This document shows, one piece after another, positions 1,035 to 61,001 of a DNA stretch of 64,000 nucleotides (position 1 is its first letter; every line of letters starts with the position of its first letter). Both the position numbers and the translations under genes were made by a program. Location of the stretch: NCBI GenBank assembly GCA_026874595.1, contig CM049307.1, forward strand, positions 23,847,079 to 23,911,078, in the 5' to 3' direction. The stretch is from Sipunculus nudus (lineage: Eukaryota; Annelida; Sipuncula; Golfingiida; Sipunculidae). A model generated the notes under the pieces. That model was given only the letters and a program-made list of their open reading frames with translations. It did no database searches and had not been told where the DNA came from.

Positions 1035-2185
1035 TTGTATCCGCCAAAACAGAGTTTTGCGGATACAATGTTTTCAGCCCACTGCCGCGGCCGCCGCGGC
1101 GTAGGTGTCCGGAGAACTCCTCCGTAACTGGTGGGCGGAATTTTACGAAACCTGGGATTATGTTTGGGTAACATGTGAACTGCTGCATCCTGATTTTGTT
1201 TTGACCTCTGACCTTTCCTCAACGCTCTGCGTCCGTTTGTGCGTCTGTTTCCACACATAAACCAACATATCTCGGGAACCGTTTGACTGATCAGGAAATT
1301 TTTTTTGCACAAATGTAGCCCTTGGAGAGCTTTATAACATACACAAGAAATGGTGGCGCCACCTGCAACCATGTTTGCATAGTGTCCATCTGTTTGTCTG
1401 CCTTGGGTTAAAATCACTCATATCTCTGCAGTGGTTTGACTAATTCACCTGAAATTTGCATTGCGTATACATCCTGGATAGCTTTTCTGATTTTATGACA
1501 GGTGGCGCCACCAACATTCACGTTTACGCTGCAGACATCCAAGCTCATCTCGGGAACCATTTGACCAATTGGGCCAAAATTTTGCATGTGTATAGATCTC
1601 ACATAGCTCTTTATCATATGGAAAACTGGTGGCGCCACCTGCAGCTATTTTTGCACAGCTCCCGCCTATTTGTCTGCCATGGGATAAAATCACTCATATC
1701 TCGACATTGGTTTGACATATCTGCCTTAATTTTGCAGGTTTATACATCCCCGACAGCTCTCTTGATTTTATGACAGGTGGCACCACCTACATTCTAGTTT
1801 ATGCAGCAGACATCCAAGCTCATATCCGTTTGACCATGTGTATAGTTCTCACATAGCTCTTTATCATATGCGAAACTGGTGGCGCCACCTGCAACCATTT
1901 TTGCACAGTTTCCATCTGTTTGTCTGCCACGGGCTAAAATCACTCATATACATGTAGTGGTTTGACTTATCTGCCTTAAATCTGCATATGTATACAACTT
2001 GGACGGCTTTCTGGATTTTGTGGTAGGTGGTGCAACCTACATACACAATTTGGCTGCAGACATCCATGCTAATATGCAACACTTCACTCTATTTCCCCTT
2101 GCCACTCAATCCATGCCTCACTTCACCATTTCCACTCTTATTTAGGCGGCTACACGTAGTCGCTTGTCGACTACCCGTATTCTAG
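1035..2185 (+). mobile_element. family A Helentron-like element, copy A1
   Basis: Begins TTGTATCCGCC; GTATCCGCCAAAAC pairs with GTTTTGCGGATAC at 1056-1068 as a 5' hairpin. A GCC/CGG-rich stretch follows (1083-1100), then a unique leader with two AGGTCA half-sites (TGACCTCTGACCT, 1202-1214) and a tandem core. The 3' end has hairpin GTAGTCG-cttgt-CGACTAC (2156-2174), 7 nt, then CTAG (2182-2185) followed by TT. GGTGGCGCCACC lies at 1352, 1501, 1628 and 1878, with variants at 1776 and 2016. No ORF for Rep/helicase is present, so it is non-autonomous. Assignment to Helitron2/Helentron (HINE) is by structure only. Confidence 0.8.
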
Positions 2186-2675
2186 TTATTTTCTGTATTT
2201 GATTCATTCTTATTCTAGGCTATGCTACATTTTAAATTTTGTATTGTACCACCAAGGTTAGAATGATTAAAGTGTACATTGATTGTGTCCACAAAGTGGT
2301 GTATTGCTATGAAAGTGTGGATGTTCATCAGATAAGTAATTCCTTACTTCAGAAGAGTAAAAACTTCACCTGGTGTGAAATTGACTATTAATTCCAGTAA
2401 TAAATTAAAACTGGGATAGTAATTAGCACAATGATATTGTTTGTCTCTCATTTAACCAACAGTGTGTATACTTTATTTGAAAAGATGTTTTATTTTATCA
2501 AATTTACTGAATCTTTTATTTTATTTTGATGAATAAAATTAAGCATGTACTGAAAACTCCAATGTGCAAAAATTTTTAATAGTGATTCAAGGAATATTCT
2601 TGTATATGCCATGCTGTGGCATTATTTTCTTTTAAATTCAGTTTAAACATTTATGATTTAAAATAATAAAATATA
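2186..2675. other. AT-rich spacer, nothing recognised
   Basis: 490 bp between A1 and the Tigger element. No exon, RNA gene or repeat end is recognisable. Confidence 0.6.
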
Positions 2676-3231
2676 CAGTGGAGTGCCGTTCATCCGAACA
2701 CCGTTTATCCGTAAAATCGTTTATCCGTAATTAAAACTGGAGAACTGAAATTATGACCGTTTATCCGTAATTTTGAAAATCTGGAAATATAAAAATAATA
2801 TTTATTCAATAAGAAGAACTGATAATGGCTCGTGTATTTACTCCCAGTCGGTCCCGACTAATTATAAATGCATCACCGGTTCGTTTCTGCAGGTGTGACA
2901 ACGCCTAATTACCCAAGTTGTACACACGCAGCTTGGGCTTGTACTCATTTGAGCAGTTATAGATGTGAAAACTACCACCGGCCGAGTCCCCTTATTAACC
3001 TTGTGTCCTGCAATGTCGAGTTGTTCACACCTGCAAACCATCCAGCCATGAGAGCGAGTAGATTTTGAGCTGATAATGTCGGACTCTGATACGCTCGAAC
3101 TTGTACTCATCTGAGCAGTTTAACAGTGCAGGCAAATCTATCTTCTATATAAGCTATACTATGACACGCAAGTTCATTCACAATTTAGCAAATCTTCACC
3201 ACGACAACACAGCACTCAAGTTTCATGTCAG

Positions 3232-8044: not shown

Positions 8045-8080
8045 TATGTGTATGCATAATATGACCCAATATGAGCTACA

Positions 8081-9571: not shown

Positions 9572-12178
9572 TTGTATCCGCAAAAAAAAAGTTTTGCGGA
9601 TACCATGTTTTTGACTGGGTTCCGCCACTGCCCCGTTGGTTTCCGGAATAGAACTCTAAGACCACTATACAGATTTTTCCTAAACTTTACACCATTATTG
9701 GGTCCCCAAAACCCACATATCTTCGGACTCATTTGACCAATCAGGGTAAAAATTTTGCACAAATGTAGCCCTTGGATAGCAAAGCTTAATAACAAACACA
9801 AAAAATGGTGGCGCAACCAACAACTATTTTTGCACAGCATCCATCTGTTCATATGCCTTTGGATAAAATCACTCATATCTCTGCAGTGGTTGGACTTACC
9901 CACCTGAAATTTTGCATGTGTATACATCCTGGATAGCTCTCTTGATTTTATGACAGATGGCGCCACCTACATTTATGTTTATGCTGCAGACATCCAGGCT
10001 TATATCTCAGGACTGGTTTGATGTATCCTCCTGAAATTCTGCATGTCTATAGATCTCACAAAGCTCTTTATCATAAGCAAAACTGGTGGCGCCACCTGCA
10101 ACCATTTTTGCACAGTGTCTGTCTGTTTGTCTGCCATGCGATAAAATCACTCATATCTCAGTAGTGGTTTGAATTATCTGCCTAAAATTTTGCATGTATA
10201 TACATCTTGGATAGTTTTCTTAAAGGGGCCCAATCACCTATAAAGCATGTTGAGTTTACATGAAAAATAGCTTCTTCCCTTTAAAATAAATCTGTACCTG
10301 CCAAAATATTGCCCTGAAACCATTTGATTTCTCCTGTAAACGAATGTTAAAAACACTGGACCGGGCGCGATGACAGGTGTAAACATAAATACAGCGTGTG
10401 GGGCCATGTGCATTACTGAGCCAAAACACATGCTAGGAACAGTCAGGCAGTCAGGCAAAACAGTTTTGGGAAACTGAACAAGTGGCAACTGTGTATGTTG
10501 CTTGGCTTTGTTAATTAATTTGAATAATTGGTTAAGCAGCCTGATTTACCCAGTTAGAATAGATGACAATTTGTTCGGTTTATGACGACTCATCCAAGAC
10601 AAATCCTTGTAGGGCCGCGAAATTAATTTGACACATCACTGAATGCCGGAGAATCTTGCGCCTTTAACTTTGATAATTAAACTTGATTGGGACATCAACA
10701 GATCAAAACATTGTATAGGACGACGGTACCTGTATTTAGACTTATTAAATCGTCTGTCATTTAACAACAAAACCTTTAAATAAACGTCGGTGATCATACT
10801 GCCTGAACCCCCGGGTCCTGCTGATCATAATATATGCAAAATGGTGTCTGCACGGTCTACCGGCAAAACATGCCATATAAAATGATAACGGAACAAGCGG
10901 GCCTTGGGATACCTTGCGCCATTACACTGTCTAATTAAACTTCAGTTGGACATCAAAGCATTTTATAAGCCAACGGTACCCTTTGTGATGACAAACTTTT
11001 ATTTAGAGACTATACAACGCCGGTCAATTAACAACCTTGACAAATCCTTTGAATAAACGAATCCCGCGTCAATGTTCACACAGCCTGTACGCGTACTCCC
11101 AGGGTCGTGCTGATCATAATATATACACACTGGTGCCCGAACCGTCTGCTGGCTAAACGTGCTATATTAAATGATTACGGAACTAGCTGGTGAGGTTTCG
11201 ACCGTTGAGCGCCATCTATTGACAATGTGAAGAAGTATCTGAACGTGAACGCAGGTTTAATTGCCGAAGAACGTATGGTCTTTGGTTATCTTTTGTTTTA
11301 CAGTTTATTTTAAAAGAAAGGATATGTTCCAGAAATATCTTAAAATAATGTTTTACCAGTATTACAGCCATGCTCAAATTTAGGTACAACCGTTAGAGTG
11401 CATAATTTGGTGAGTGAATATCAATCAAGTCATGGCGTGAAAATTACCGTGGTTTATGACTGACTCAGAGAAGTTTGTTAATACATATAAGCCTGTTTAA
11501 AATATTAATATTACATTTTATAAAATTAACAATGAATATAATTAATACACAAATATGCAGTATCATTAAATATATGTTCTTAGTATTCACTTCCATCTTC
11601 CTCTGCCTTATATCGCCCATTGCGGGCCGTCGAGTCTCTTGTACATGTTTGGTTTTAGCCTAACCTGCGTATTATAGCCGCATCCCTTGTCGAGTAAAAT
11701 TAGTCAGGATTTTCAGTTCTAAGTCATATTTTATGGCCGCGGCGGCAAAACGCGGACCTACGGTATGTCCCTTTAACTTTGTGGCAGGTGGTACCACCTA
11801 CATATATGTTTTTGCTGCAGACATTCATGCTTATATCTCAGGACTGGTTTGACATATCCCCTGAAATTTTGCATGTGTATAGATCTCATATAGCTCTTTG
11901 TCATACACAAAATCGGTGGCGCCACCTACATTCATTTTTGCCCAGTGTCCTTCTGTTTGTCTGCTGTGGGATAAAAGCAGTGATTTGACTTGTCTGCCTA
12001 AAATTTTGCATATGTACACAACTTTGATAGCTTTCTTGATTTTGTGGCAGGTGGTGCCACTTACATACACATTTTGGCTGCAGACATCCATGCTAATATG
12101 CAACACACTTCACTCTATTTCCCCTTGCCACTCAATCCATGCCTCACTTCACCCGTCCTACTCTGATTTCGGCAGATA
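9572..12178 (+). mobile_element. family A Helentron-like element, copy A2 (interrupted)
   Basis: Begins TTGTATCCGC with the hairpin partner GTTTTGCGGATAC. The core carries GGTGGCGCCACC at 10085 and 11915, with variants at 9807, 9956, 11787 (GGTGGTACCACC) and 12050. It is split at 10220-11776 by a TTAA-flanked element; the phrase 'ggatagttttctt...' resumes as 'ctttgtggcaggtgg'. The 3' end fades at about 12178 ('gatttcggcagatata') without hairpin or CTAG, so the tail is lost. Confidence 0.75.
10224..11772. mobile_element. TTAA-flanked DNA transposon without ORF
   Basis: Flanked by TTAA at 10220-10223 and 11773-11776. The ends are AGGGGC... and ...GTCCCT, a short inverted repeat. TTAA duplications belong to piggyBac and Kolobok; the purine-rich AGGG tip fits Kolobok somewhat better. 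The interior (10560-11190) has two diverged ~310-bp direct repeats ('gctgatcataatatatgca' near 10820 and 'gctgatcataatatataca' near 11110). No transposase frame is present. A second, partial copy lies at 25493. Confidence 0.7.
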
Positions 12179-13413
12179 TATAAACAAACAGTAATACAAT
12201 GCATCAATGGAAAGCATTCATGATTTCATGATTGGTAAATAAATAAGTAATTAAATAAATCAATTAATTAGAGAAAAGTGTTCAATTTATCATCTCGTTT
12301 AACCTTGGCACAAGGGACAGTGGGGTAATGCAAAGTTGCAGATAAAATGAGAGACAATGAACTATGCAAGGTAGCAGATTATAAAAGACATTTGATGTTT
12401 GAAGGTAAACATATTGGTAATAATTGTAAGAGAGCAAGGAGACTTTAAATTGGTAAAACTTTTGGTGTTGCCAGACTTCTTTCTGTCTAATTGGTGGAAA
12501 CAGAAAGCAGTATTTGTAATATTGGTCAAAGTGCCTAGTAGGTGGTGACATCTATGGCCAATTTTAGGAACTAACATTTATATTGAAAATGAGATCCACA
12601 AATCCTATTTTCTTTTTGCTCAATTCATACTTGATTGAAAGCACTCAGTTGAAAAAAATATTCCTGATGTTCTAAATATGTGCTTATTATGGAGCCTTGA
12701 AATTGGTCCTTCTAACTGTAAGACACAATATCTAAAAAAAACTTCTACTCAGGGCCACTTCTGATTAAAAGTTCTGGCATGTCCTCTGGGTCTACATTAA
12801 TTAAATATCATTATTACTAAGTTAATGAAAATTCACCAGTCTCTTCTATTCATCAAAATCAATCAGGACTAACATATGTATAAAAAAGCAAAAGGTCAAA
12901 TACCTGAACAGACTGTTTTTCATCAGTTCCACAAATTTACTGTTTAACTTTCATCACTTTTTGTGACAGAACGTGCAAAACATCATGAACCAAGGCACAC
13001 TAGATTTGTGCCACCACATATTCATTTTGATTTTTTGAGATAACCAATACAAGACTTATGAAATAAATCATGTTCATTTATGAAATAAATATATGGCTTT
13101 TTCTATACATGATTGATATAAGTATGCTTACATAAATTGTGATTGCCATTTCCTCAGAATCTGATGGTCATATTACATATACATAGACACTGGTGGACTT
13201 TTGATCAATGACAGTTTCTGGGGGGGGGGGGGGTTCCTTTATGTACTCTGCATAAAATTATATATATATATATATGCTGATATTGGCTCATATGTTAATA
13301 TGTAAAGTTTTCACTAGCATTTTGTATGTAATATTTGATCTATTTACAGAGATGCTGTCAGTGATATTGTAGGTCATTTTATTCATAATATTAATGTCAT
13401 CTGTCATTTTCAG
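12179..13413. other. CLEC16A intron, unannotated stretch
   Basis: AT-rich DNA with no recognisable repeat ends or exons, apart from a G14 run (13220-13233) and a short TA run (13260-13276). A polypyrimidine tract and CAG end it at 13413, the acceptor of the next exon. The preceding CLEC16A exon is not found here. Confidence 0.6.
13220..13276. repeat. G14 tract and (TA)n microsatellite
   Basis: Fourteen G at 13220-13233, then a TA run at 13260-13276, about 140 bp upstream of the exon acceptor. Confidence 0.9.
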
Positions 13414-13534: not shown

Positions 13535-13540
13535 GTGAGT

Positions 13541-16251: not shown

Positions 16252-16297
16252 TTGTATCCCCAGACAAAGTCGGGGGATACTATGTTTTCATACCGGT

Positions 16298-16311
16298 CCC
16301 GCCGCCGCCGC

Positions 16312-16342
<31 letters not shown>

Positions 16343-16344
16343 GC
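16298..16344. repeat. (GCC)n microsatellite
   Basis: About 15 GCC/GCT triplets directly after the 5' hairpin of B0. It occupies the same place as (GTCC)n in family C. Confidence 0.95.
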
Positions 16345-16919
16345 ATATGAATCTTGTTGGCGCGATAACCCAAAAAATATTTCACGGAACTTTACCAAAC
16401 TTGGTATATGTATAGATATGGGTAAGAGGACGACGCCTATTTAAAATGAGGTCATGACCTTTACTAGGAGAGTGTCCTTGACCTTGAATAGGTCCAATTT
16501 TGGGGAAAATCACACAAATTCTTTAATATCTCAAGAAATCTTGCATGGATTTATCCCAAAATCAAGTTGATGGAAGATCATGGATAGGGTTGTCATGTTC
16601 CAGAAACTGGTGGCGCCACCTATTATTCTTTACTTGTTTTCGTGCCGTTTAATACCCCCTAAATTGCCACCTTACAGCACTGTGAGCATTATAAGTCAAA
16701 AACTAATGGACAGATTTCTTTTATATTATGCATATACATAGGTATGGGTTATGGGATGATGCTTATTTAAATTGGGGTCATGACCTTTCCTATGATAGTG
16801 GCCTTGACCTTGAATATTGCCATATATGGTGAAAATCACACACCTCTTATGATATCTCCAGTGTTGATAGCCATATGGATTTCAAACATGACTTATGTAT
16901 GGCCCACCACTAAAGTAAG

Positions 16920-19600
16920 AACCCTATAGGTTCTAGGGTCATGAGGTCAAAGGTCAAGGTCACTGGACTGGCATTTTAAAAGATACTTTGGATGCATTTT
17001 AAGCCAAACTTTCATCCCAGGTCTTCCATCTTGAATATATAGCTCACTTGCCAATAATGGATGATCCATATAAATTTTGGGGTCACAAGGTCAAAGGTCA
17101 AGGCCACAGGAGCTATCTGTCCAAAAATTAGTTTCTGGATGATAATTCCTGCTTTTATTGATGTAATGATTTCAAAATTGACTTATATTTGACCCATTGG
17201 AAAAGCAAGACTGGAATTGAATTTGGGGTCATAAGGTCAAAGGTCAAGGTCACAGGAAACCTCTATAAAAAGATTGTGGATGCATTTTCAGCCAAACAAT
17301 TCATCTCAGATCTTTCATCTTGCACATATAGTTCACCTGCCAAGAGTGGAAGACCCCTATCAATTTTGAGGTCACAATGTCAAAGGTGAAGGTCACAGGA
17401 GCCATATGTCAAAAAATTAGTTTCTGGATGATAATTCCTGCTTTTATTGATGTATGGATTTCAAACTTGACTTATATATGTGCCATTGGAAAAGCAAGAC
17501 CCAAATTGATTTTGGGGTCATGAGGTCAAAGGTCAAGGTCACATCTTTAAAAAGATGTGGATGCATTTTCAGCCAAACATTTCATCTCAGGTCTTTCATC
17601 TTGCACATATAGTTCACCTGCCAAGAGAGGAAGAACCCTATCAGATTTGAGGTCACAAGGTCAAAGGTGAAGGTCACAGGAGCCATCTGTCCAAAAATTA
17701 GTTTCTGGATGATAATTCCTTCTTTTATTGATGTTTGGATTTCAAACTTGACTTGTACTTAACCCATTGGAAAAGCAAGACCGGAATTGAATTTGGGGTC
17801 ATGAGGTCAAAGGTCAAGGTCACAGGAAACCTCTATAAAAAGATTGTGGATGCATTTTCAGCCAAACAATTCATCTCAGATCTTTCATCTTGCACATATA
17901 GTTCACCTGCCAAGAGTGAAAGACCCCTATCAATTTTGAGGTCACAAGGTCAAAGGTGAAGGTCACAGGAGCCATATGTCCAAAAATTAGTTTCTGGATG
18001 ATAATTCCTGCTTTTATTGATGTATGGATTTCAAACTTGACTTATATATGTCCCATTGGAAAAGCAAGACCCAAATTGATTTTGGGGTCATGAGGTCAAA
18101 GGTCAAGGTCACATCTTAAAAAAGATGTGGATGCATTTTCAGCCAAACATTTCATCTCAGGTCTTTCATCTTGCACATATAGTTCACCTGCCAAGAGAGG
18201 AAGAACCCTATCAGATTTGAGGTCACAAGGTCAAAGGTGAAGGTCACAGGAGCCATCTGTCCAAAAATTAGTTTCTGGATGATAATTCCTTCTTTTATTG
18301 ATGTTTGGATTTCAAACTTGACTTGTACTTGACCCATTGGAAAAGCAAGACCGGAATTGAATTTGGGGTCATGAGGTCAAAGGTCAAGGTCACAGGAAAC
18401 CTCTATAAAAAGATTGTGGATGCATTTTCAGCCAAACAATTCATCTCAGATCTTTCATCTTGCACATATAGTTCACCTGCCAAGAGTGGAAGACCCCTAT
18501 CAATTTTGAGGTCACAAGGTCAAAGGTGAAGGTCACAGGAGCCATATGTCCAAAAATTAGTTTCTGGATGATAATTCCTGCTTTTATTGATGTATGGATT
18601 TCAAACTTGACTTATATATGTCCCATTGGAAAAGCAAGACCCAAATTGATTTTGGGGTCATGAGGTCAAAGGTCAAGGTCACATCTTTAAAAAGATGTGG
18701 ATGCATTTTCAGCCAAACATTTCATCTCAGGTCTTTCATCTTGCACATATAGTTCACCTGCCAAGAGAGGAAGAACCCTATCAGTTTTGAGGTCACAAGG
18801 TCAAAGGTGAAGGTCACAGGAGCCATCTGTCCAAAAATTAGTTTCTGGATGATAATTCCATCTTTTACTGCTGTATGGATTTCAAACTTGGCTTTGTTAT
18901 TGACCCATTAGAAAAGCAAGACCGGAATTGATTTTGGGGTCATGAGGTCAAAGGTCAAGGTCACAGGAAACCTCTTTAAAAAGATTGTGGATGCATTTTC
19001 AGCCAAACAATTCATCTCAGATCTTTCCTCTTGCACATATAGTTCACCTGCCAAGAGTGGAAGACCCTATCAGTTTTGAGGTCACAAGGTCAAAGATGAA
19101 GGTCACAGGAGCCATATGTCCAAAAATTAGTTTCTGGATGATAATTCCTGCTTTTATTGATGTATGTATTTCAAACTTGACTTGTATATGTCCAATTGGA
19201 AAAGTAAGACCAAAATTGATTTTGGGGTCATGAGGTCAAAGGTCAAGGTCACAGGACACATCTTTAAAAAGATGTGGATGCATTTTCAGTCAAACATTTC
19301 ATCTCATATATTTCATCTTACACATATAGTTCTCCTGCCAAGAGAGGAAGAACACTATCAATTTTGAGGTCACAAGGTCAAAGGTGAAGGTCACAGGAGC
19401 CATCTGTCCAAAAATAAGTTTCTGGATGATAATTCCTGCTTTATTGATGTATAGATTTCAAACTTGACTTGCATATGTCCCATTGGAAAAGCAAGACCCA
19501 AATTGATTTTGGGGTTATGAGATCAAAGGTCAAGGTCACAGGACACATCTTTAAAAAGATCAAGGTCACAGGACCAACATCTTCAACAAGATTGTGGATC
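16920..19600 (+). repeat. ~285-bp satellite with 570-bp dimer higher-order repeat
   Basis: The anchor 'tttggggtc' occurs at 17222, 17511, 17792, 18081, 18362, 18651, 18933, 19221 and 19508. Spacings alternate 289 and 281-282 for the first six steps, giving a 570-bp dimer repeated three times almost without change (17222, 17792, 18362). Outer units are more diverged. Each unit carries AGGTCAAAGGTCAAGGTCA (perfect at 16944, 17234, 17523, 17804, 18093, 18374, 18663, 18945, 19233) plus a second 'ggtcacaaggtcaaaggtgaaggtcac' cluster. Short frames within the repeat are by-products, not genes. Confidence 0.92.
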
Positions 19601-19918
19601 GTTAGATGGAATAAACAATAAATATGCCAAGTGTCAGTATATGCTGCTAAAATGGGGGTCTGTTCTTGTAGGAGGGGGGCCTACTATGTCTGGGGATACT
19701 CTGGCACCTGCGGTGCCAAGAAATGTCTAGTTACTCAGATAGGCACATGAAGTCCGCCATATTTTTTTCTTGAATGGAAGTATGTCTTTACAAGAACAGT
19801 TCCTAAGGATTTGCAGATGAGGTCCTGTTTACAGGATTCCATGTAGTCAGTTGGTCTGAATTTATTACTTATCTGTTTATATAATAAATGCACAACATTT
19901 TTGAGCCAGTGTATTTCT

Positions 19919-28003: not shown

Positions 28004-29110
28004 TTGTAATGGCCAGAACAAAAGTTTTGTGGTTACTGAACTGTTTGACCAGGTTCAGCCATCTCCGCAGCCGCGTTCATTTCTGGAGTACTCCTCTGAG
28101 ACCCTTTGACTGATCTTTCTGAAACCCAGCATAGTTATTAGCTCACCTACGTAGCTGTGCCTAAACAGACTGATGGCGCCACCTTTAGTCCTTTTCGTGC
28201 AGTATGAATCTTGGTGTCTTTTTGATAAAAGCCCATATCTCAGGAGTGGTTCAGTGTGTTGGGCTGAAACTTTGCATGTTCATAGATCGCTTCATCTCTG
28301 CATCTCATACTACAATGCTTTTTGTGTGGCGTTCATCCATGCATTTACCAACTGTTCCTCTTGGTGATTGATTCAACATAATGAGCTTAAATTGTGGGTG
28401 TCCATAGACCTTGGCTACCTCCATCTCCTATTCAAGACTGGTGGCTCTAACTGCAATAATTTTTCATGTGGTGTCCTTCCCCACATTTGCTTTTGGTGAA
28501 AATTGCCAATATCTCAGGACTGGTTCAATGTATATGTCTGAAATTTGGCATGTACATCCATCTTGGAGTTTTTTCGGTGACCAGACAGGTGGCACCACCT
28601 ACCCAAACGTTTTCATAGTATAAATTAATGCCCTTTTCTCAGGAGTGATTTGCTGTATTTTCCTTAAACTGTGCATGTCCATAGAATTTAGATCCCTCCA
28701 ACTCTTATTCAAGACGGGTGGCACCATCTGCAAAAGTTTTCTTTTGGCATCTATCCATATGTTTGCTTTAGGTGAAAATTGCTCATATCTCAGGTGACAT
28801 TCAATGTATTGGTCTGAAATTTACCATGTACTTCCATCTTGGGAGAGTTTTCTCAAAAAACAGATTAATGGCACCATCAAACTTCCTGTTTTCATAGAAT
28901 AGATTAATGCCCTTTTCTCAGGAGTGATTTGCTGTATTGGCCTGAAATTGTGCTTGTCCATAGATCTTGGATACCTGGTGGTGCCATCTGCAATTGTTTT
29001 TTCGCATGGTGTCCATCCATGTGTTTGCTTTAGGTAGAAATTGCTCATATCTCAGGAGTGGTTTAATGTATTGGTCTGAGTTTGACATGTCCATCCATCT
29101 TGGAGAGATT

Positions 29111-30252
29111 TTTTAGCTCAGCTGACTGTAAGTCAACTGAGGTATAGGAATGGCGCTTTGTCCGTTGTCCTGCTGGTTGTCCGGCTGTCTGGCTGTCCTT
29201 TAGCAGGGCACAAATCATAACTTCTGGTCCTAGTAACTTCTAAGTGAACATCCAAGGAGGTCAATGAAAATCTCCTTGGAAACCTGAAATTAGGTCACTG
29301 TGACCTATATCCTCCGAGCTGTGGGGCTTGAAAGTACTCCCCCCCCCCCCCCCCCCGAATAATAAAAAATATAATACAAAACCTCCAATATCTTGATAAT
29401 TAAAGCCAAACTTTTCATCCCTAACCTTCCATCTTGCACATATAGCTGAGCTGCCAATTGGAGAAGAATCTGATTGATTTGGGGGTCACAAGGCCAAAGG
29501 TTATGGTCACGGGCCCATCTGTCCACATATTTGTTTCTGGATGATAACTTCAGTTTGGATTGACATATTGGTTTCAATTTTTATTTATATATGACCCATC
29601 AATAATGTAAGAACCCTTTCGATTTTGGGGTCATAAGGCCAAAGGTCAAGGTCACAGGACCCACTTCTTTAAAAAGATTGTTGATGTATTTTTGGCCAAA
29701 CTCTCTGTCCCAAACCTTTTATCTTCCAGATGTTGCTCACCTGCCAATAGTGGAAGTTACTTATGGATTTTGGGGGTTCACAAGGTCAAAGGTCTAGGTC
29801 ATGGGGGGGGGGCATCAATCCACATATTTGTTTCCAGATGATAACAACAGTTTGGTTTGAAATATTGGTTTCAAACTTGACTTATAAATGGTCCACCACT
29901 AAAGTAAGAACTGTTGATTCTGGGGTCATGAGAGCAAAGGTCAAAGTCACAGGATTCACTCCTTTAGAAAGTTTGTGGGTGCATTTTTAGCCAAACTTTT
30001 CATCTTAATCCTTCCATCATCAACAGGTGGTGCACCTGCCAATAGGGGAAGTTTCCTTTTGATTTTGGGGTCACAAGGTCAAAGGTTAAGTTCACAGGGC
30101 CCATCCATTCACAAATTAGTTTATGGATGATAACTCCAGTTTGGGTAGACAGGTTGGCTACAAACTGATCACAGGACCAATATTTTGGAAAACCTCATTA
30201 ACATATCCTTATAGACAAATGCAGCTGAGCGTCGAGACCCATGGGTCCCTAG
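29111..30252 (+). mobile_element. family C Helentron-like element, copy C5 (complete)
   Basis: Begins TTTTAGCTCAGCTGACTGTAAGTCAACTGAGGTATAG (5' hairpin), then a 'gtccgttgtcctgctggttgtccggctgtc' microsatellite relic. It ends CAGCTGAGCGTCGAGACCCATGGGTCCCTAG before TTTAT. Here the terminal bases are CTAG, as in families A and B. The core is not the usual family C core: 29470-30110 is the AGGTCA-bearing satellite of family B ('ggtcacaaggtcaaaggt', 'tttctggatgataac', 'tttcaaacttgacttat'). Confidence 0.8.
29339..29356 (+). repeat. poly-C tract
   Basis: Run of 18 C inside C5, at the place where other C copies read 'aaagtacccccca'. Confidence 0.95.
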
Positions 30253-30330
30253 TTTATAAACCAGACAGGGGCCATCTTGGAGAATTTTTATAGACCAGAC
30301 AGATGGCACCATCCATAAAAAGCTTTGATC

Positions 30331-40432: not shown

Positions 40433-41892
40433 TTGTATCCGCCAAAACGAAGTTTTGCGGATACTATGTTTTTGACCGGGTTCCGCCACCGCCGCGTTCG
40501 TTTCCAGAGAACTCCTCTTAAAGACTACTGGACAGATTTTTCCGAAACTTACACAAATTATCGGGTCACATGTGAACTGGTGCCTAACCAAGTGACCTTG
40601 ACCTCTGACCTTTCCTCTCTGCCCAGCGTCCGTTTATGCGTCTGTTTCCACACATAAACCCACATATCTCGGAAACCGTTTGACCGATCAGAAAAAATGT
40701 TTTACACAAATGTAGCCCTTGGATAGCTTTATAACATACACAAAAAATAGGTGGCGCCACCTGCAACCATGTTTGAACAGTGTCCATCTGTTCATCTGCT
40801 TTGGGTTAAAATCACTCATATCTCTGCAGTGGTTTGACTAATTCACCTAAAATTCGGCATGCTTATACATCATAGATAGCTTTCTAGATTTTATGACAGG
40901 TGGCGCCACCTACATTCACATTAACACTGCAGACATCATTCCTCATATCTCGGAAACCGTTTGACCGATCTGGAAAATTTTTTTTACACAAATGTAGCCC
41001 TTGGATAGCTTTATAACATATACAAAAATGGTGGCACCACCTGCAGCCATTTTTGCACAGTGTCCATCTGTTTGTCTGCCTTAGGTTAAAATCACTCATA
41101 TCTCTGCAGTGGTTTGACTTATTCTCCTGAAATTTGGCATGCGTATACATCCTAGATAGCTTTCTTGATTTTATGACAGTTGGCGCCACCTACCTTCACA
41201 TTCACGCTGCAGAGATCAAAGCTCATATCTCAGGAACCGTTCGACCAATCAGGAAAAAAATTACACAAATGTAGCCCTTGGATAGCTTGATAACATACAC
41301 AAAAATGGTGGCGCCACCTGCAGCCATTTTCGCACTGCGTCCATCTGTTTGTCTGCCTTGGGTTAAAATCACATATCTCTGCAGTGGTTTGACCAAATTA
41401 CCTGAAATTCGGCATCCGTATACATCCCGCATAGCTTTCTTGATTTTATGATAGGTGGCGCCACCTACATTCACGATCACACTGCAGACATTAATGCTTA
41501 TATCTCTGGACTCGTTTGACCAATCAGGAAAAAAAATTTACATAAATGTAGCCCTGGATATCTTTATAACATACACAAAAATGGTGGCACCACCTGCAGC
41601 CATATTTGCACAGCGTCCATCTGTTTGTCTGTTGTGGGATAAAATCACTCATATCTCTGCAGTGGTTTGACTTTTCCACATGAAATTTTGCATGTGTATA
41701 CATCTTGGATAGTTTCTCGTTCAAATAACAGGTGGCGCCACCCACAATCTTGTTTATGTGGCAGAGATCCATTCTAATATGTAACACATGTAACTCTATT
41801 TCCCCTTGCCACTCAATCCATGCCTCACTTTACCCGTCCTTCTCTGATTTTGGCGAATACATGTAGTCCCTTGTCGACTACCCATATTCTAG
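40433..41892 (+). mobile_element. family A Helentron-like element, copy A3 (complete)
   Basis: Starts TTGTATCCGCCAAAAC with its hairpin partner GTTTTGCGGATAC, then GCC-rich DNA. The leader holds TGACCTTGACCTCTGACCT (40593). The 3' end is hairpin GTAGTC..GACTAC, then CTAG (41889-41892) before TT. The core is the most regular here: the palindrome or a one-base variant sits at 40750, 40899, 41030, 41179, 41307, 41454, 41583 and 41731, spacings 149, 131, 149, 128, 147, 129 and 148. Confidence 0.88.
40750..41742 (+). repeat. family A tandem core, ~277-bp unit with two palindromes
   Basis: Each unit has two related halves. One reads 'acaaatgtagcccttggatagctttataacatacacaaaaatGGTGGCGCCACCtgcagcc'-like; the other reads 'atacatcctagatagctttcttgattttatgacaGGTGGCGCCACCtacattcac'-like. 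Five of the eight sites are perfect. Confidence 0.9.
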
Positions 41893-42829
41893 TTAGTCTT
41901 AATTTGTCTGCCCCAAAATTTCAGAAAATCTACCTCAAGCCATGGTCTGAATTAATATTGTGGACAAATGAACCAACAAACAGATAAGCAATGGTAGGAA
42001 TTTACAGGGGATTTGCCAGTATCTTTGAAAAGGAAATTGAGCAGGACCAGCCCTCAACATTATAACTGAGTGTCCATTATTGAGGCAGTGATGTGACTTG
42101 CATCATATATTAGTGGCAGATAATATATCAGATGTAAGGCAGGTTTGAGCATATACATTGAGAATGTTTGAATTTGGATAAGGTAAATGGTCAGCTATCA
42201 CCACTTTTGATAAGATGATAATCAAGATATAAGATATTCTACCTGGAATAATACATATATCATGATGCATGGGTCAGCAGGGTGCATGACCTTTGTATGC
42301 TATTAATACTTGCATGCTGTCAGTGGAACTATACACACAGCACACGGTATCTTTCTTGGAAATAATCAATAACCCTTGACCATATAAACTGAAGTGGTGG
42401 ACCTGCATTCACAAAAGCTTCCGTTTGACATATGTGGAGTGATTTCTGAGAATACCGCTGGCATACCACCCAGTTTTGTGTGGAGAGATAATAACCAACG
42501 TACTTGGAACTGTATCCAGGGGTCAGCGTGGAATGTTGTTCTGTTTCCTCTGGGCTCCAGTGAGCGGTGTTAGGAATTGGTTGTGACTTGTTTCCTTCTG
42601 TCCTCATGTGTTTTATGGCCAGAATCCTCCTTTTTTCCACCCTACTTTGTGTGCTCCTGCTTGTTCTGCTTCTATCCATGATGTCACATTCTGGACCTTG
42701 TGCCTTTTCTTCTCTATCGTCCTCCTCCATGTGTCCTTTGGTCTTCACCTGCTCCTTTTATCGCTTGTGAAATCTTGTTAAATGATCTTAAAAAATCTTG
42801 CTAATATTCTAGTTTTGCAATGCAATGCT
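41893..42829. other. intron stretch, nothing recognised
   Basis: A 139-codon minus-strand frame (42329-42748) has no family I recognise and no splice or repeat support. Confidence 0.45.
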
Positions 42830-51293: not shown

Positions 51294-51850
51294 TTTTCTT
51301 CTGCCTCGTATTCTGTCTGTCTGTCATCCATCAGTGTATGTTTTCTGTTAAGGGCAACATTTCTAAAGCATTCCCTTGATTCATTATACTTTACTTGGTA
51401 CATGTGTATTATGGGTCTCCTCACCTGATTATATTTATCTCATGCTTGATTGATTCTCTGTATTTTAATATCAGTGTGTCACAACTTTTTATACATTTAT
51501 TTGTGACTCTGACTTAAATTAAAAGTGACTTAGATCCACTTGTGCTTGCTGTGTGGTATATGCACACAGTGATTGTATCCACCAAAACAGGGTTTTGTGG
51601 ATTCTGTGTTTTCAGCCGGCCAACGCCGCATAGGTTTCTGGAGAACTCCTCTGTAACCACTGGACAGAATTTTACGAAACTCGGTATTATGATCGGGTCA
51701 TGTGAACAGCTGCACCCTCATTTTAGGTTGACCTCTTACCTTTCCTCTCTGCACAGCATCTATCTTTGAGTCTTTTTTCACACATAAACCCACATATCTT
51801 AGGAATCCTTTGACCAATCTGGGTGAAAAATTGCTTGAGTGTAGCTCTTG
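51294..51850 (+). repeat. segment duplicated at 58517-59075
   Basis: About 280 bp of non-element DNA plus the first ~280 bp of A4 reappear 7.2 kb downstream with only a handful of base changes, nearly all transitions. The right limit is uncertain because both copies continue in family A sequence. Confidence 0.9.
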
Positions 51851-52110
51851 GATAGCTTTATATCTTACACAAAACTGGTGGCGCCACCTTTAACCATTTT
51901 TATACAGCATCCATCTGTTTGTCTGCCTTGAGTTAAAATCACTCATACCTCTGCAGTGGTTTGACTTATCTGCCTGAAATTTTGCATGTCTATACATGAC
52001 AACATATCTCACTCTATTTCCCCTTACCACTCAACCCATGTCTCACTCCACCTGTACCACTCTGATTTCTGCAGATACACGTAGTCGCTTGTCAATTACC
52101 CATATTCTAG
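51573..52110 (+). mobile_element. family A element, copy A4 (short form)
   Basis: 5' start TTGTATCCACC with GGTTTTGTGGATTC. The core is reduced to a single site GGTGGCGCCACC (51877). The 3' end 'gtagtcgcttgtcaattacccatattCTAG' is at 52107-52110 before TT. At 538 bp it is nearly pure leader and tail, probably after internal deletion between core units. Confidence 0.82.
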
Positions 52111-52408
52111 TTAGGTATAGGTCACACTTGGTCTATTTTCTGAAGTTTAATCATTTATGAAAGATGGCTTTCACTTTCAGATTGACTTATTTAAGAAAAT
52201 TTTACAAGTGGAAGGATAATTTTCACACATTCAAACTACATTAGTGACTTTGTTTTTGGACCATCTTATTTTTTCTTGATGTTCAATTAACTGATACTGC
52301 TCCTATGACTGATGTGCACCAATTAACTATTTTATTCTGTCTAAATAGGTTTTCTGATTGCTTCAGGGGTTAATGAGTTTAAATTTAGAGCATATTTATA
52401 TCTCATTT

Positions 52409-54218: not shown

Positions 54219-54520
54219 TTGTATCCCCAGACCAAGTCGGGGGATACTATGTTTTCATGACGGTCCAGCCACCGCATATAAATCTAGTTGGCGCAATAAC
54301 TCAAAAAATATTTCAGTATAAATATCAATATAAAAATAATCACGGATCTTTACCACCTTTACTAGGAGAGTGTCCTTGGCCTTGAATAGGTCCAATTTTG
54401 GGGAAAATCACACAAATTCTTAAATAACTCAAATTTTGCATGGATTGATCCCAGAATCAAGTTGATCGAAGATCATGGATAGGGTTGTCATGTTCCAGAA
54501 ACTGGTGGTGCCACCTATTA

Positions 54521-55749
54521 TTGTATCCCCAGACAAAGTCGGGGGATACTATGTTTTCATACTGGTCCCGCCACCGCATATAAATCTTGTTTGCACGATA
54601 ACTCAAAAAATATTTCACGGATCTTTACCAAACTTGGTATATGTATAGATATGGGTGAGAGGACGACGCCTATTTAAAATGAGGTCATGACCTTAAATAG
54701 GAGAGTGTCCTTGACCTTGAATAGGTCCAATTTTGGGTAAATCACACAAATTCTTAAATATCTCAAGAAATCTTGCATGGATTGATCCCAAATCAAGTTG
54801 ATGGAAGATCATGGATAGGGCTGTCATGTTCCAGAAACTGGTGGCGCCACCTATTATCTCTACTTGTTTTCATGCCGTTCAATACCCCCAAAATTGCTCC
54901 TTGAAGGTACTGTGAGCATTATAAGTCAAAAACTAATGGACAGATTACTTTCATATTATGCATATACATAGACATGGGTTATGGGATGATGTATATATAT
55001 ATATTCGGGTCATGACCTTTCCTATTAGAGTGGCCTTGACCTTGAATATTGCCATATATGGTGAAAATTACACAAAATCATTAATATCTCAATAAGGGAT
55101 CCATGGATTGGTCCAAAAATCAACTTGATCGAAGATCTTGGATAGTATTGTCATGTACCGTAAAACCCCATCATTGCCACTTGACAGTACAGTGAGCAGT
55201 ATAAGTCAAAAACTAATGGACAGATTTCTTTCATATTATGCATATACATAGGTATGGGATGATTTTTTTTTAAATTGGGGCCATGACCTTTCCTATGAGA
55301 GTGGCCTTGACCTTGAATATTGCCAGTTAGGTGAAAATCACACAAAATCATTAATATCTCAATAAGGGATGTATTGATTGGTCCAAAAATCAACTTGACC
55401 GAAAATCTTGGCTAGTGTTGTCATGTACCGGAAACTGATAGCACCACCTGTTATTCTTTTACTTGTTTTTGTGCCGTTTAATACCCCATCATTGCCACTT
55501 GACAGTACTGTGAGCAGTATAAGTAAAAAACTAATGGACAGATTTCTTTCATATTATGCATATACATAGACATGGGTTAGGGGATGATGTATATTGAAAT
55601 TGGGGTCATGACCTTTTCTATGAGAGTGACCTTTTCTATGAGTGTGGTCTGATATTAATTGTTGCTGAAGATAGGGGGCCTATTCTTAAAGGGGGAGGGA
55701 TTAATTGTCTGGGGATACTTTGGCATCTGCGGTGCCAAGAAATGTCTAG
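54521..55749 (+). mobile_element. family B element B2 (complete, nested in B1)
   Basis: TTGTATCCCCAGACAAAGTC (hairpin with GGGGGATAC) at the left. At the right are GTCTGGGGATAC, hairpin TGGCATC-tgc-GGTGCCA and AAGAAATGTCTAG (55746-55749) before TT. It contains AGGTCATGACCT (54682) and GGTGGCGCCACC (54840). There is no target duplication around it, which fits rolling-circle insertion. Confidence 0.88.
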
Positions 55750-56275
55750 TTATTTACTTGTTTTTGTGCCGTTTAATACCCCCAAAATTGCCACTTGACA
55801 GTACTGTGAGCATTATAAGTCAAAAACTAATGGACAGATTTCTTTTATATTATGCACATACATAGATATGGGTTATGGGATGACGTTTATTTAAATTGGG
55901 GTCATGACCTTTCCTATGAGAGTGGTCTTGACCTTGAATATTCCCATATTTGTTGAAATTCACACAAAATCTTTAATATCTCAGTAAGGAATACATGGAA
56001 TGATCCAAAAATCAAATTGACAGAAGATCTTTGAAAGCTTTGTCTTTTGCAGAAGACAGGTGGCGCCACCTTGTGTCTTTTTCTTGTTAAAATGATGTTC
56101 ACGCAATAACTTTGTAAAAATTTGAGGTACAGTCACCAAACCCACAGGTTTGATGCATCTTATCAACGGTTAGGTCAAGTACAAGAAGATATGACCTTGA
56201 TGCACTTTTTAGCTCAGCTGACTGAAAGTCATCTGAGCTATAGCAATCACTCTTTGTCCGTCTGTCTGTCTGTCC

Positions 56276-58240
56276 GTCCGTTAACCAGGCACAAATTGTA
56301 ACCGCTGGACCTAGAATCTTGTCTGAGTCTGAGAGGTCCATGAAAAATCTCCTTGGAAACCAGAAATTAGGTCTCTGTTACCCATATCCTTTGAGCTATG
56401 GGGGCCCCAAAGTACCCCCAAGAAAAGTAAAAAATTTCATACAAAAACTTCAATATCTCATTAACTACTTGACTGACGGTCATACATATTGATCATGAGA
56501 TGTTCCATCAGTTCCTGCAGACTGGTGGCGCCACCTGTATTTTTCGATTTTTTATGAATTTTTTTCTCTATTTTTGAGACCTTTAAAAATGTAAACATCT
56601 GTTAACAAGGCACAAATCGTAACGACTGGACCTAGAATCTTTATTCTTGACACACGGAGAGACCTATGAAAAGTCTCCATGGAAACCAGAAATTAGGTCT
56701 CTGTTACCCATATCCTTCGAGCTATGGGGCTTCAAAGTTCCCCCCAGAATAGTCAAAAATTTCATACAAAAACTTCAGTATCTCATCAACTACATCACTG
56801 ATGGTCATGATTTTGGCATACATATTGATCATGAGATGTTTCATCAGTTTCTGCAGACTGGTTGTGCCATCTGTATTTTTCAATTTTTACGAATCGTTTT
56901 CTCTATTTTTGAGACCTTTAAAAATGTGAACAGCTGTTAACACGGCACAAATCCGAACAAGACTGGACCTAGAATCTTCATTCTTGACACAGTGAGAGAC
57001 CTATGAAAAGTCTCCATGGAAACCTGAAATAAGGTCTCTGTTACCCATATCCTTTGTGCTTTGGGGGGCTCCCAATTACCCCCCTGAATAATGGAAAATT
57101 TGATAAAAACAAACTGCAACATCTCAATAACTACAACACTGATGGTCATGATTTTTGGCATCCATATTGATCAAGAGATGTTCCATCAGTCCCTGCAGAC
57201 TTGTGGCGCCAACTGTATTTTTTCAAATTTTCATAATTTTTTTCTCCACTATTTTTGAGACCTGTAAGGATGTAGTTATCTGTCAACAGGGTAAAAATCG
57301 TAACGACTGGACCTAGAATCTTCATTCTTGACACTCAGGGAGACCCATGAAAAGTCTCCATGGAAACCTGAAATTAGGTCTCTGTTACCCATATCCTTTG
57401 AGCTATGGCACTCCAAAGTACAGCTTAGAATAATGGAAAATATGATACAAAAGCTGAAGTATCTGAACAACTAATGCAGAGATCACCATAATTGTTTGCA
57501 TGGATATTGATCATGGAGTGTTTCATCAGTTTCTGCAGACTGGTGGCACCACCTGTATTTGTTCGGGTTTTTTTTACGAATTTTTTCTCTATTTTTGAGA
57601 CCTTTAAAGATATGAACATCTGTTAACAGGGCACAAATCATAAAAACTTGACCTAGAATCTTCATTCTTGACACATAGGGAGACCCATGAAAAGTCTCCA
57701 TGGAAACCTGAAATTAGGTCTCTGTTACCCATATTCTTTAAGCTGTATGGCTCCAAAATACCCCCCAGAATAATGAATAATTTGATACAAAAAACTGCAG
57801 TATCTCAATAACTACAACACTGATGGTCATGATTTTCTGCATACATATTGATCATGAGCTGTTCCCTCAGTTTCTGTAGACTGGGTGCGGCACCTCTATT
57901 TTTTCAAATTTTTACGAATTTTTTTCTCTTTTTTTGAGACCTTTAAAGATGTGGCTATCTGTCAACAGGGTACAAATCATAACAACTGGACCTAGAATCT
58001 TCATTCTTGTCATGCAAGGAGGCCCATGAAAAGTGCCTGTGGAAAGTTGAAATTAGGTCTCTGTTACCCATATCCTTCAAGCTATAGGACTCCGAAGTAT
58101 CCCTCAGAATAATGGACAATATGATACAAAAGCTGAAGTATCTGAACAACTAATGCAGAGACCACCATGATTCTTTGCATGGATATTGACCATTAAGTGT
58201 TTTTATTATTTTCTGCAGACTGGTGGAGCCACCTATATTT
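56276..58240 (+). repeat. C1 tandem core, ~340-bp unit
   Basis: Units contain 'gttaacagggcacaaatcgtaacgactgg', 'gtctccatggaaacc', 'aggtctctgttacccatatcctt', 'gatggtcatgat' and 'ctgcagactGGTGGCGCCACCtgtatttt' in order. The palindrome or its variants lie at 56524, 56860, 57202, 57542, ~57880 and 58222, about 336-342 apart. Confidence 0.9.
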
Positions 58241-60233
58241 TTGTATCTGCCAAAACAAAGTTTTGCGGATACCATGTTTTTGACCAGGTTCTGCCGCCGC
58301 ATTCCTTTCCGCAGAACTCCTCTGAGACTAATGGACAGAGTTTACCGAAACCTACACCAATTATCGGGTCACATGTGAACTGGTGCCTCACCAATTTGCA
58401 TTGACCTCTGACCTTTCCTCTCTGCCCAGCTTCTATTTGTGCGTCTGTTTCCACACATAAACCCTCATATCTCAGAAACCGTTTGACCGATCAGGAAAAA
58501 AATTTATACAATATGAATTTTCTTCTGCCTCGTATTCTGTCTGTCTGTCATCTATCAGTGTATGTTTTCTGTTAAGGGCAACATTTCTAAAGCATTCCCT
58601 TGATTCATTATACTTTACTTGGTACATGTGTATTATGGGTCTCCTCACCTGATTATATTTATCTCATGCTTGATTGATTCTCTGTATTTTAATATCAGTG
58701 TGTCACAACTTTTTATATATTTATTTGTGACTCTGACTTAAATTAAAGTGACTCAGATCCACTTGTGCTTGCTGTGTGGTATATGCACACAGTGATTGTA
58801 TCCGCCAAAACAGGGTTTTGTGGATTCTGTGTTTTCAGCCGGCCAACGCTGCATAGGTTTCTGGAGAACTCCTCTGTAACCACTGGACAGAATTTTATGA
58901 AACTCGGTATTATGATCGAGTCATGTGAACAGCTGCACCCTCATTTTAGGTTGACCTCTTACCTTTCCTCTCTGCACAGCATCTATCTTTGAGTCTTTTT
59001 TCACACATAAACCCACATATCTTAGGAATCCTTTGACCAATCTGGGTGAAAAATTGCTTGAGTGTAGCCCTTTGATAGCTTTATAACATACACAAAAAAT
59101 GGTGGCGCCACCTGCAACCATGTTTGCACAGTGTCCATCTGTTCATCTGCCTTGGGTTAAAATCACTCATATCTCTGCAGTGAATTGACTAATTCACCTG
59201 AAATTCAACATGCTTATACATCCTGGATAGCTTTCTTGATTTTATGACAGGTGGCGCCACATACATTCACGTTCACGCTGATGACATCCAAGCTCATTTC
59301 TCGGGAACCGTTTGACCGATTGGGCCAAAATTTTACACGTGTATAGATCTCACATAGCTCTTTATCATACGCAAAACTGGTGGCGCCATCTGCAACCATT
59401 TTTGCACAGAGTCTGCTGTTTGTCTGCCGTTGGATAATGTCACTTATATCTCGGCAGTGGTTTGACATATCTGCCTAAAATTTTGCAGTTTTATACATCC
59501 TGGATAGCTTACTTGATATTATGACAGGTGGCGCCACATACATTCACGTTTACACTGATAACATCCAAGCTCATTTCTCGGGAACTGTTTGACCGATTGG
59601 GCCAAAATTTTGCATGTGTATAGATCTCACATAGCTCTTTATCATACGCAAAACTGGTGGCACCATTTGCAACCATTTTTGCACAGAGTTTGTCTGCCGT
59701 GGGATAATGTCACTTATATCTCGGCAGTGGTTTGACATATCTGCCTAAAATTTTGCAGTTTTATACATCCTGGATAGCTTTCTTGATTTTATGACAGGTG
59801 GACCCACCTACATTCTAGTTAACACTGCAGACATCCAAGCTCATATCTCAGGAACCATTTGACCGATTGGGCCAAAATTGTGCATGTGTTTAGATCTCAC
59901 ATAGGTCTTTATCATAAACAAAACTGGAGGGGCCACCTGAAACTATTTTTTCACAGCGTCTGTCTGTTTGTCTGCCGTTGGCTAAAATCACTCATATACA
60001 TGTAGTGGTTTGACTTTTCTGCCTAAAATTTCACATGTGTATACAACTTTCTGTTTTCTGGATCTGTGGTAGGTGGCACAATCTACATACACATTTAGGC
60101 TGCAGACATCCATGCTAATATGCTACATACCGCACTCTATTTCCCTTTGCCACTCAATCCATGCCTCACTTCACCCGTTCCACTCTGATTTTGGCGGATA
60201 CATGTAGTCACTTGTCGGCTACCCGTATTCTAG
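58241..60233 (+). mobile_element. family A element A5 (chimeric, nested in C1)
   Basis: First 5' start TTGTATCTGCC at 58241. The leader runs to ~58510, then jumps into the duplicated segment (58517-59075), which brings a second 5' start at 58796 (TTGTATCCGCC). The core continues with palindrome sites at 59101, 59250, 59379, 59527, 59656, 59797, 59927 and 60072. The 3' end is hairpin GTAGTC..GGCTAC and CTAG (60230-60233) before TTTTT. 'GGCGGATAC' (60193-60201) is the exact inverse of the 5' GTATCCGCC. Confidence 0.85.
58517..59075 (+). repeat. copy of 51294-51850 inside A5
   Basis: 'attttcttctgcctcgtattctg' at 58517 matches 51294, and the two run together through flanking DNA and the A4 5' end. 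Confidence 0.9.
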
Positions 60234-60416
60234 TTTTTAAAGTTTACACATTTTTCCTCTATTTTTGAGATATATAAATACAGACACAATCTTGGCCTGT
60301 TGGTTAATCTGTTTGATGCTTCAGTTGAATGGGTATATACTACCATTCTGATGATAAAATTTCCTTTTGCGAATCTCTTCCCAGTCAGCTGAGCGTCATG
60401 ACCCATGGGTCACTTG

Positions 60417-61001
60417 TTCAAGGGCCCAGCAGCGATTATGATCAAATGATATTAGGGAATAACTCAAAAAAAGAATTTGTGGTACAGTCATCAAACCTAC
60501 AGTTTAGATGCATCTTATCAAGGGCTAGGCCAAGTTCGAATATGGATGACCTTGATGCATTTTTCAAGGTCTCAGAGGCGATAACGCTGAAGTGATGTTA
60601 ACTTTAATATCTCACTGAGGGATGCATGGATTGGTCCAAAAATTAAATTGACATAAGATCTTTGATAGCATTGTTTTCTACAGAAGACAGGTGGCGCCAC
60701 CTTATGTTGTTTTTGTGCTAGAATGATGTTTAAACGGAATAACTTTATAAGAATTTGATTTACAGTCACCAAACCCACAAATTTGATGCATCTTATCAAA
60801 GGCTAGGTCAAATTTGAACATGGATGACCTTGATACATTCTTTCAAGGTCACAGCAGGGATTATGTTAAAATGAAATTACGGCAATAACTCAAAAAAAAT
60901 TGTTGGTACAGTCACCAAACTTACAGGTTAGATGCATCTTATCAAGGGCTGGGGGGAGGGGGGTGGGTTAATTGTCAGGGGATAATATGGCACCTGCGGT
61001 G
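60417..61001 (+). repeat. terminal part of B1 with 'gatgcatcttatcaa' units
   Basis: Three imperfect ~150-300-bp units ('gtacagtcaccaaac..acag.ttagatgcatcttatcaagggctagg', near 60483, 60762 and 60905), with 'gatgaccttgat' and the palindrome at 60690. Confidence 0.7.

Follow-up and report, generated by a model that had tools for sequence, protein, structure and literature searches.

HINEs (non-autonomous Helentrons) have been described from the oyster Crassostrea gigas, where the Cg_HINE elements contain satellite-like central repeats (PMC7492417). According to the available part of that report, the monomers of CL1, CL2, CL10 and CL13 share two conserved segments with CL4 and are otherwise dissimilar (PMC7492417). 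Here, we analyzed a stretch of 64,000 nucleotides from Sipunculus nudus (contig CM049307.1, positions 23,847,079 to 23,911,078 of the forward strand; G000:C2:23847079-23911078 in our numbering), hereafter the window, which belongs to a genome of 1.4265 Gb in 153 contigs. A preliminary description of this window had reported a 12-bp palindrome, GGTGGCGCCACC, hereafter the box, in repeat families A, B and C. All 18 exact boxes in the window lie inside elements with HINE anatomy, some of them damaged, and judging from their sequence they represent HINEs like those known from oyster. We report that the box is identical between the consensuses of the repeat families and that it decays among individual copies.

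Shared half-monomer around the box

Every one of the 18 exact copies reported earlier was found at its start, and none occurred in 100 dinucleotide shuffles of the window. Besides the exact boxes, there were 15, 12 and 17 sites with one, two and three mismatches, respectively; with 27 sites at one or two mismatches, the earlier figure of about 20 near-copies was a fair one, and part of the near-copies lie outside the repeat arrays. The wider context AC(T/A), also reported before, precedes 12 of the 18 exact copies, and a T directly follows 16 of them (both counted by eye). The genome-wide count, proposed there as a check, gave 111,729 exact boxes, whereas the reversed word, of identical letter composition, occurred 14 times, and a grid sample of 20 segments of 10 kb from contigs C1–C6 contained 20 exact boxes. 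Since copies of the same array or family derive from one another, the chance figure for the box carries less weight than it appears to.

The families had been regarded as otherwise unrelated, which proved to be wrong. Profiles of about 95 bp upstream of the box, with the box itself excluded, were run over the window and revealed homology in register upstream of the box, strong among A-odd, A-even and E units and weak for B and C. The A-odd, A-even and E profiles cross-matched with best E-values of 3e-7 to 3e-12, while the values from A-odd to a B unit (0.034), from B to A (0.074) and from C to A (0.094) were borderline and that from B to C was above 1. When units were compared with profiles in combinations involving B or C, 53 of 120 comparisons aligned, and 47 of these 53 were at most 4 bases off the box register by hand count; A-even versus C gave no alignment in 6 and was at background (p 0.70). 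We gave no weight to the Mann-Whitney p-values, which assume independence among copies that are in fact related. Genome-wide, ATATCTC followed by an exact box spaced as expected, 65–95 bases on, was found 64,562 times, and the reversed pattern 0 times. Longer homology around the box, named in the preliminary description as one of the results that would speak against its view, was thus present; it was firm among A-odd, A-even and E but weak where B and C were involved. The alternative that the box had inserted independently into repeats of different origin was dropped because the flanks are related.

In the 200-kb grid sample, the box-free profiles recovered 18 of the 20 exact boxes, 4 of the 18 being seeds of the F profile, which had been added from this sample. 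The two that were missed, at L036 7579 and L039 8561, have a C-like and an A-like flank on one side (by eye), and there is an A-type 5ʹ end 60 bp away from the latter. We tentatively regard the box as the most conserved between-family stretch within an old half-monomer that is about 140 bp long, a building block of the central tandem repeats in several HINE families; in this description, taken jointly with the replication benefit proposed below, our confidence is a little less than even.

Constancy between families and decay among copies

The box-free profiles gave 130 hits in 276 kb, of which 99 units had a full flank. Exact boxes were present in 43 of these units and boxes with one, two and three mismatches in 28, 10 and 12, respectively, while 6 units had lost the box. 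By origin, 45 units came from the window (18 exact, 1 lost), 34 from the grid (17 exact, 3 lost) and 20 from loci chosen for the box (8 exact, 2 lost); the grid units alone, which are unbiased, included 8, 1 and 5 boxes with one, two and three mismatches. The chosen loci, picked for an exact box, were L020, L021, L023 and L025; the others among L020–L027 overlap these in whole or in part and were left out. The four gave 20 of the 99 full-flank units and 9 of the 12 E units.

Between families, the six consensuses (A-odd, A-even, B, C, E and F) agree at all 12 box positions, whereas consensus pairs differ at 31–67% of the positions upstream and 40–75% of those downstream, and the highest of these values are close to random. 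At the 10 non-CpG positions of the box, there were no differences in any of the 15 consensus pairs. The A-odd, A-even, B, C and F consensuses are independent of the box-chosen loci, on which the 5 pairs with E depend.

Among close copies, in contrast, the box was hardly better kept than its upstream flank. Nearest neighbors were compared at non-CpG positions in 96 units forming 73 pairs, with three units with deleted boxes excluded. The divergence was 0.093 in the box (68/730), 0.112 upstream (664/5913) and 0.199 downstream (401/2016), giving a box-to-upstream ratio of 0.83 with a bootstrap confidence interval of 0.58–1.14; when deleted boxes were scored as mismatches instead, the box and upstream values were 0.101 and 0.115. 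For the 22 pairs with less than 8% flank divergence, the box diverged by 0.036 and the upstream flank by 0.029, and for the 25 pairs above 16%, the box diverged by 0.104, compared to 0.207 upstream and 0.342 downstream. The box divergence plateaus while the flank divergence keeps rising, which is the pattern expected if constraint acts on the replicating source lineage and the resident copies decay neutrally. These results suggest a constraint on the replicating source elements and not on the resident copies; this is our best reading and is not proven. The central CpG decays fastest (0.32), and CpG transitions account for 28 of 84 box substitutions in the 93 of 99 units with box letters to compare. 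Genome-wide, A-even units found with an exact 20-base anchor carry an exact box in 4,997 of 8,103 cases (61.7%).

The preliminary description had called the box conserved against a changing background, had taken this to suggest that it does something for the elements or for host proteins, and had conceded that a box no better conserved than its flank would undo this. The view stood between consensuses and nearly failed among close copies, where box and flank are nearly alike. A function for the elements retains some support where the source elements are concerned, while one for host proteins at these copies is not supported, as close copies decay almost as the upstream flank does.

The same data bear on simple common descent without any function, in which the box would have survived from the ancestral monomer by chance, and the recent spread of a few sources together with exchange between families would have kept it identical. 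The homology of the families and the near-neutral decay of close copies are what it predicts, and modules of such elements are described, in the part of the source available, as recombining between families (PMC7492417). However, it has to explain why the consensuses are identical at 12 of 12 bases, including the decay-prone CpG, when the flanks differ by 31–75%, and we consider it unlikely, though a serious contender.

Several observations weigh against constraint at the source. The E consensus is exact only with the 9 box-chosen units, the window E units alone giving GGTGGCACCATC. In the class of 8–16% flank divergence (26 pairs), the box diverged more than the upstream flank (0.131 and 0.092), and the same holds within family C (0.209 and 0.096). 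In A-odd and B, the box ranks first or ties for first among the 12-column windows of the family, which it does not in A-even, C and E; windows conserved as well as the box numbered 72 of 135 in C and 22 of 140 in E. Because the homology of B and C to A is weak, the flank divergence in comparisons with B or C may be inflated by misalignment. As it was the box that first drew attention to the families, box-less lineages are under-counted, and homologous box-less monomers were indeed found: F arrays contain an alternate half-monomer, and in other monomers different motifs take the place of the box. Of these, 2 of the 4 units without a box in a fresh 50 kb (described below) were of the alternate F type. 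No autonomous element with A, B or C termini was linked to these families among the genomic Helitron_like_N loci, whose ends were not read. Finally, the roles in docking, transcription and transposition discussed below are ones that we infer from sequence alone.

Possible role of the box

Taken together, the box looks as if it is kept for the elements' own sake and not as a host chromosome-folding site. Elements with the box would replicate or be expressed better and so retain it, and the box would most likely be a dyad-symmetric docking site for a protein. A candidate binder is a host DNA-binding factor aiding germline transcription or replication; alternatively, the Helentron's own Rep-helicase may bind it. 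Once inserted, a copy would be dead weight whose box decays, the CpG fastest. A half-monomer box retained as a protein-docking palindrome through a benefit to replication or expression of the element is the explanation that we favor overall, with confidence slightly below even. A palindrome that is fixed between families and rots in landed copies is the signature expected of a part that the element needs.

Other binding-site-like motifs occur at the place of the box in some box-less monomers, which we take as a hint for a docking site. A combined profile detected further box-less monomers. In a fresh 50 kb unused in profile building, there were 10 unit matches, comprising 2 exact boxes, 1, 2 and 1 boxes with one, two and three mismatches, respectively, and 4 box-less units. 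In the B-type half-monomer, AGGTCATGACCT lies within a few bases of the position equivalent to the box, and its genome count was 3,866, compared to 94 for the reversed word. The nuclear-receptor-like half-site RGGTCA was present at the box-equivalent place in 17 of 62 distinct box-less kinds versus a background of 5.7%; this test was post hoc and on the same data, so that its p-value is not a fair one, and the 62 kinds include units with a deleted or cut-off box.

A host-beneficial enhancer array for another transcription factor, selected in place, would make use of such half-sites. However, single matches of RGGTCA, at 34 of 85 in place and 5/84, 4/85 and 7/84 at shifts of −75, −45 and +75, also reached 20/84 at +45; the fresh 50 kb gave 2 of 11 versus a background of 2.9%, and close copies decay nearly like the upstream flank. 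We therefore hold this to be the least probable of the explanations, with hardly any weight. A tandem array of units of about 289 bp in element B1 is rich in AGGTCAAAGGTCAAGGTCA-like half-sites, presumably nuclear-receptor-like, and no box within 2 edits was found in this array (16874–19560).

The F-type arrays (L039, L040, L045 and L051) seem to mix half-monomers with and without a box; in three units, at L029 near 9918, L020 near 1631 and L023 near 1650, the flanks continue and little or nothing but the box is missing; and at 55167 in the window, a larger deletion removes the box together with the following sequence.

The three units lacking little more than the box could fit a structural or recombination signal, where a GC-rich perfect palindrome in AT-rich repeats would be prone to strand exchange or slippage and would expand arrays so that box-bearing monomers multiply. 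Two nested insertions 5 and 7 bp past a box near-copy point the same way. These are few events, however; symmetric (compensatory) change was seen once when 3.0 were expected, and stable cruciforms call for palindromes longer than 12 bp as a rule, which makes this account improbable. An RNA or single-stranded DNA hairpin kept by compensation was rejected on the same count of 1 versus 3.0, which has little power since the copies decay.

The box had also been likened to the central part of the CTCF consensus. For CTCF, we used the 16-base core CCASYAGRKGGCRSYV. The likeness holds for the 3ʹ part, as AGGTGGCGCC(A) matches the 3ʹ consensus on both strands, and not for the 5ʹ part CCASY, which scores 1.6 on the plus and 2.0 on the minus strand out of 5 in the 18 exact boxes, compared to 1.57 expected. 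Scored on both strands, the exact boxes reach 11–14 of 16 positions and none has the full core; the best match in the window (16/16, at 39214) lies away from any box, the second (15/16, at 14348) coincides with a near-copy of two mismatches that is not part of the arrays, and exact boxes make up 3 of the 8 sites that match at 14 positions. That elements spread CTCF (insulator) sites for host chromosome folding would agree with the 3ʹ match and with a guide RNA that contains TGGCGCCACCT, 11 bases of box and neighbor, and is directed at HS+44, which the accessible part of its report describes as a CTCF-binding site of the mouse (PMC13083895). In one cephalopod, CTCF sites are reported at domain borders, again according to part of the source (PMC10658181). 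We nevertheless consider an insulator role very unlikely because the 5ʹ half is at chance and resident copies decay neutrally, even young resident boxes being unprotected from mutation; the best window match is not at a box either. The case also cautions against taking such motifs for host insulators on the strength of their number and their partial likeness to a consensus.

A wider proposal, more doubtful than the explanation that we favor, is that a trans-acting factor common to Helentron families whose ends differ, from the host or the Helentron, ties them all to a single internal palindrome that it recognizes, so that the central repeats would be docking arrays and the box could be swapped, at the same position of the monomer, for the nuclear-receptor-like AGGTCATGACCT in some lineages. 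The half-site enrichment at this position, found post hoc, receives weak independent support from the fresh 50 kb. If the proposal is true, the central repeats, usually seen as passive satellite filler, are arrays of docking sites needed by the element. To our knowledge, why Helentron-type elements carry satellite-like middles is an open question.

Elements of the window and comparison with known systems

The elements share a layout of a 5ʹ subterminal inverted repeat (subTIR), its complement, a central repeat array, a matching 3ʹ repeat and a hairpin, and A and B elements terminate in CTAGTT. There are three sets of ends in the window, with subTIRs of 11–15 bp at both ends, as in HINEs, and mismatches in some copies: A (GTATCCGCCAAAAC/TTTTGGCGGATAC), B (GTATCCCCAGAC/GTCTGGGGATAC) and C (AGCTCAGCTGACT/AGTCAGCTGAGC). 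Just after the 5ʹ subTIRs follow their complements, GTTTTGCGGATAC, GTCGGGGGATAC and AGTCATCTGAGCT, which correspond to the 5ʹ inverted repeat (IR) of the DINE-1/Cg_HINE type. The 3ʹ palindrome reads GTAGTC...GACTAC in A3, TTGGCA...TGCCAA in B2b and GACCCATGGGTC in C. T-rich insertion without target duplication was found at B2b in B2a and C1 in B2a, at these few sites only, as shown by comparing the joined flanks with uninterrupted paralogous repeats. As for a left microsatellite, there is a clear GTCY run in C1 and a CCG run in B1, and none is evident in A. Both ends are present in A1, A3, A4, A6, B1, B2b and C1, while A2, A5 and B2a are damaged, with a degenerate 3ʹ end in A2 and B2a and A5 being a fragment. 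A nest of elements occupies the stretch between 54219 and about 61000, with B2b and C1 within B2a and A copies within C1. In A3, the cleanest A copy, box spacing alternates between 147–149 and 128–131 bp. Coordinates are listed below.

Table. Box-bearing elements and related features, in positions of the window
Feature	Position	Strand	Details
A1, HINE-like	1035..2187	+	5ʹ subTIR/IR hairpin, A-type central repeats, exact boxes 1352, 1501, 1628, 1878, 3ʹ hairpin, CTAGTT
A2	9572..12190	+	degenerate 3ʹ end; array broken ~10222–11766; exact boxes 10085, 11915
B1	16252..19732	+	subTIR GTATCCCCAGAC/GTCTGGGGATAC, 3ʹ hairpin, CTAGTT; exact box 16609; 289-bp array 16874–19560
E-type array	28094..30313	+	decayed boxes 28172, 28440, 28588, 28717, 28977, 30302; C-type element interrupts ~29114–30254
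A3, cleanest A copy	40433..41894	+	exact boxes 40750, 40899, 41307, 41454, 41731
Upstream half-monomer relating the families, example	40655..40749	+	ATATCTC at 40664–40670
Box GGTGGCGCCACC, example	40750..40761	.	perfect palindrome, exact match
A4, short	51573..52112	+	exact box 51877
B2a, outer element hosting nested ones	54219..61000	+	exact boxes 56059, 60690; degenerate 3ʹ end ~60974
B2b, in B2a	54521..55751	+	exact box 54840; insertion point 5 bp past box near-copy
C1, in B2a	56211..60418	+	subTIR AGCTCAGCTGACT/AGTCAGCTGAGC, GTCY microsatellite, 3ʹ palindrome; exact box 56524
A5 fragment (from 58241) and A6 (58796–60235), in C1 array	58241..60235	+	exact box 59101

Several further features of these elements were observed. 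The insertions at 54520/54521 and 58240/58241, 5 and 7 bp past a box near-copy of the host array, are too few for a claim of target preference. Just inside the 5ʹ IR, a box-like GGTYCCGCCACC with 2–3 mismatches is present in 7 of the 9 A and B 5ʹ ends listed, at 9618, 16295, 40479, 54262 and 54564 in the window and at two more sites in L021 and L039; possibly it is a terminal counterpart of the box, or it merely reflects shared descent of two 5ʹ modules. The same 12 bases, TGCACACAGTGA, precede the 5ʹ ends of two A elements (51561–51572 and 58784–58795), which suggests duplication of a larger segment. A (CCG)15 run lies just inside the 5ʹ end of B1 (16299–16344) and differs in length in other copies. 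At 3124–4854, the window also contains a transposase in two frames, interrupted by a stop codon, with the Pfam domains CENP-B_N, HTH_Tnp_Tc5 and DDE_1, which we take to be Tigger/pogo-like.

The genome contains at least 143 matches to Helitron_like_N, for example at C4:36174940, C8:80139053 and C13:66180677, and some of the 143 fall in open frames longer than 2,200 amino acids; Helentron machinery is present in this genome as predicted from these frames. In IMG/VR, ACWGGTGGCGCCACCT occurred in 19 contigs, 16 of which had a GC content of 0.5 or more and 5 of which had ATATCTC somewhere; the seven profiles gave nothing at E below 0.01 against these 19 contigs, and the upstream motif returned 0 matches in IMG/VR. 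Among the papers searched, the exact 12-mer is printed in one, which going by its title is on a chitinase. Shorter or neighboring pieces appear in eight, among them the HS+44 guide (PMC13083895) and the silkworm row of a CRISPR table (PMC7883824), both in the available parts of the papers, the other six being off-topic by title. For TGGCGCCA as a palindrome or binding motif, there were three literature matches, all off-topic by title. As far as we searched, two findings are new: a single palindrome that stays the same in at least five monomer families, whose elements have three kinds of ends in the window, and the constancy of the box at the source level compared to its decay at the copy level.

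The closest described system is Cg_HINE, which these elements resemble in the 5ʹ subTIR with complementary IR, a left microsatellite (clear in C1), the 3ʹ subTIR with palindrome, the T-rich insertion and central repeats mostly of 140–180 bp (PMC7492417). Its two conserved CL1/CL4 segments may or may not correspond to ATATCTC and the box. Unlike here, the available part of that report makes no mention of a palindromic box within the central repeats (PMC7492417). The Pearl, DTC84 and MgE elements of bivalves, likened here by description only, have short arrays of central repeats (of about 160 bp each in Pearl) between conserved ends, according to the same partial source (PMC7492417). With HINE/DINE-1 elements, as far as the available part of their description goes, the elements of the window share subTIRs, a 3ʹ palindrome, T-rich or TT insertion, central repeats and the lack of coding capacity, with the difference that the conserved part here is within the central repeats and not at the ends (PMC4067079). 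Alu offers a more distant parallel, as a mobile repeat that spreads nuclear-receptor sites or a short binding-like motif in bulk, according to the accessible parts of two reports (PMC1785376, PMC3252374). Alu belongs to another element class, however, and in the elements of S. nudus the motif is constant across diverged families.

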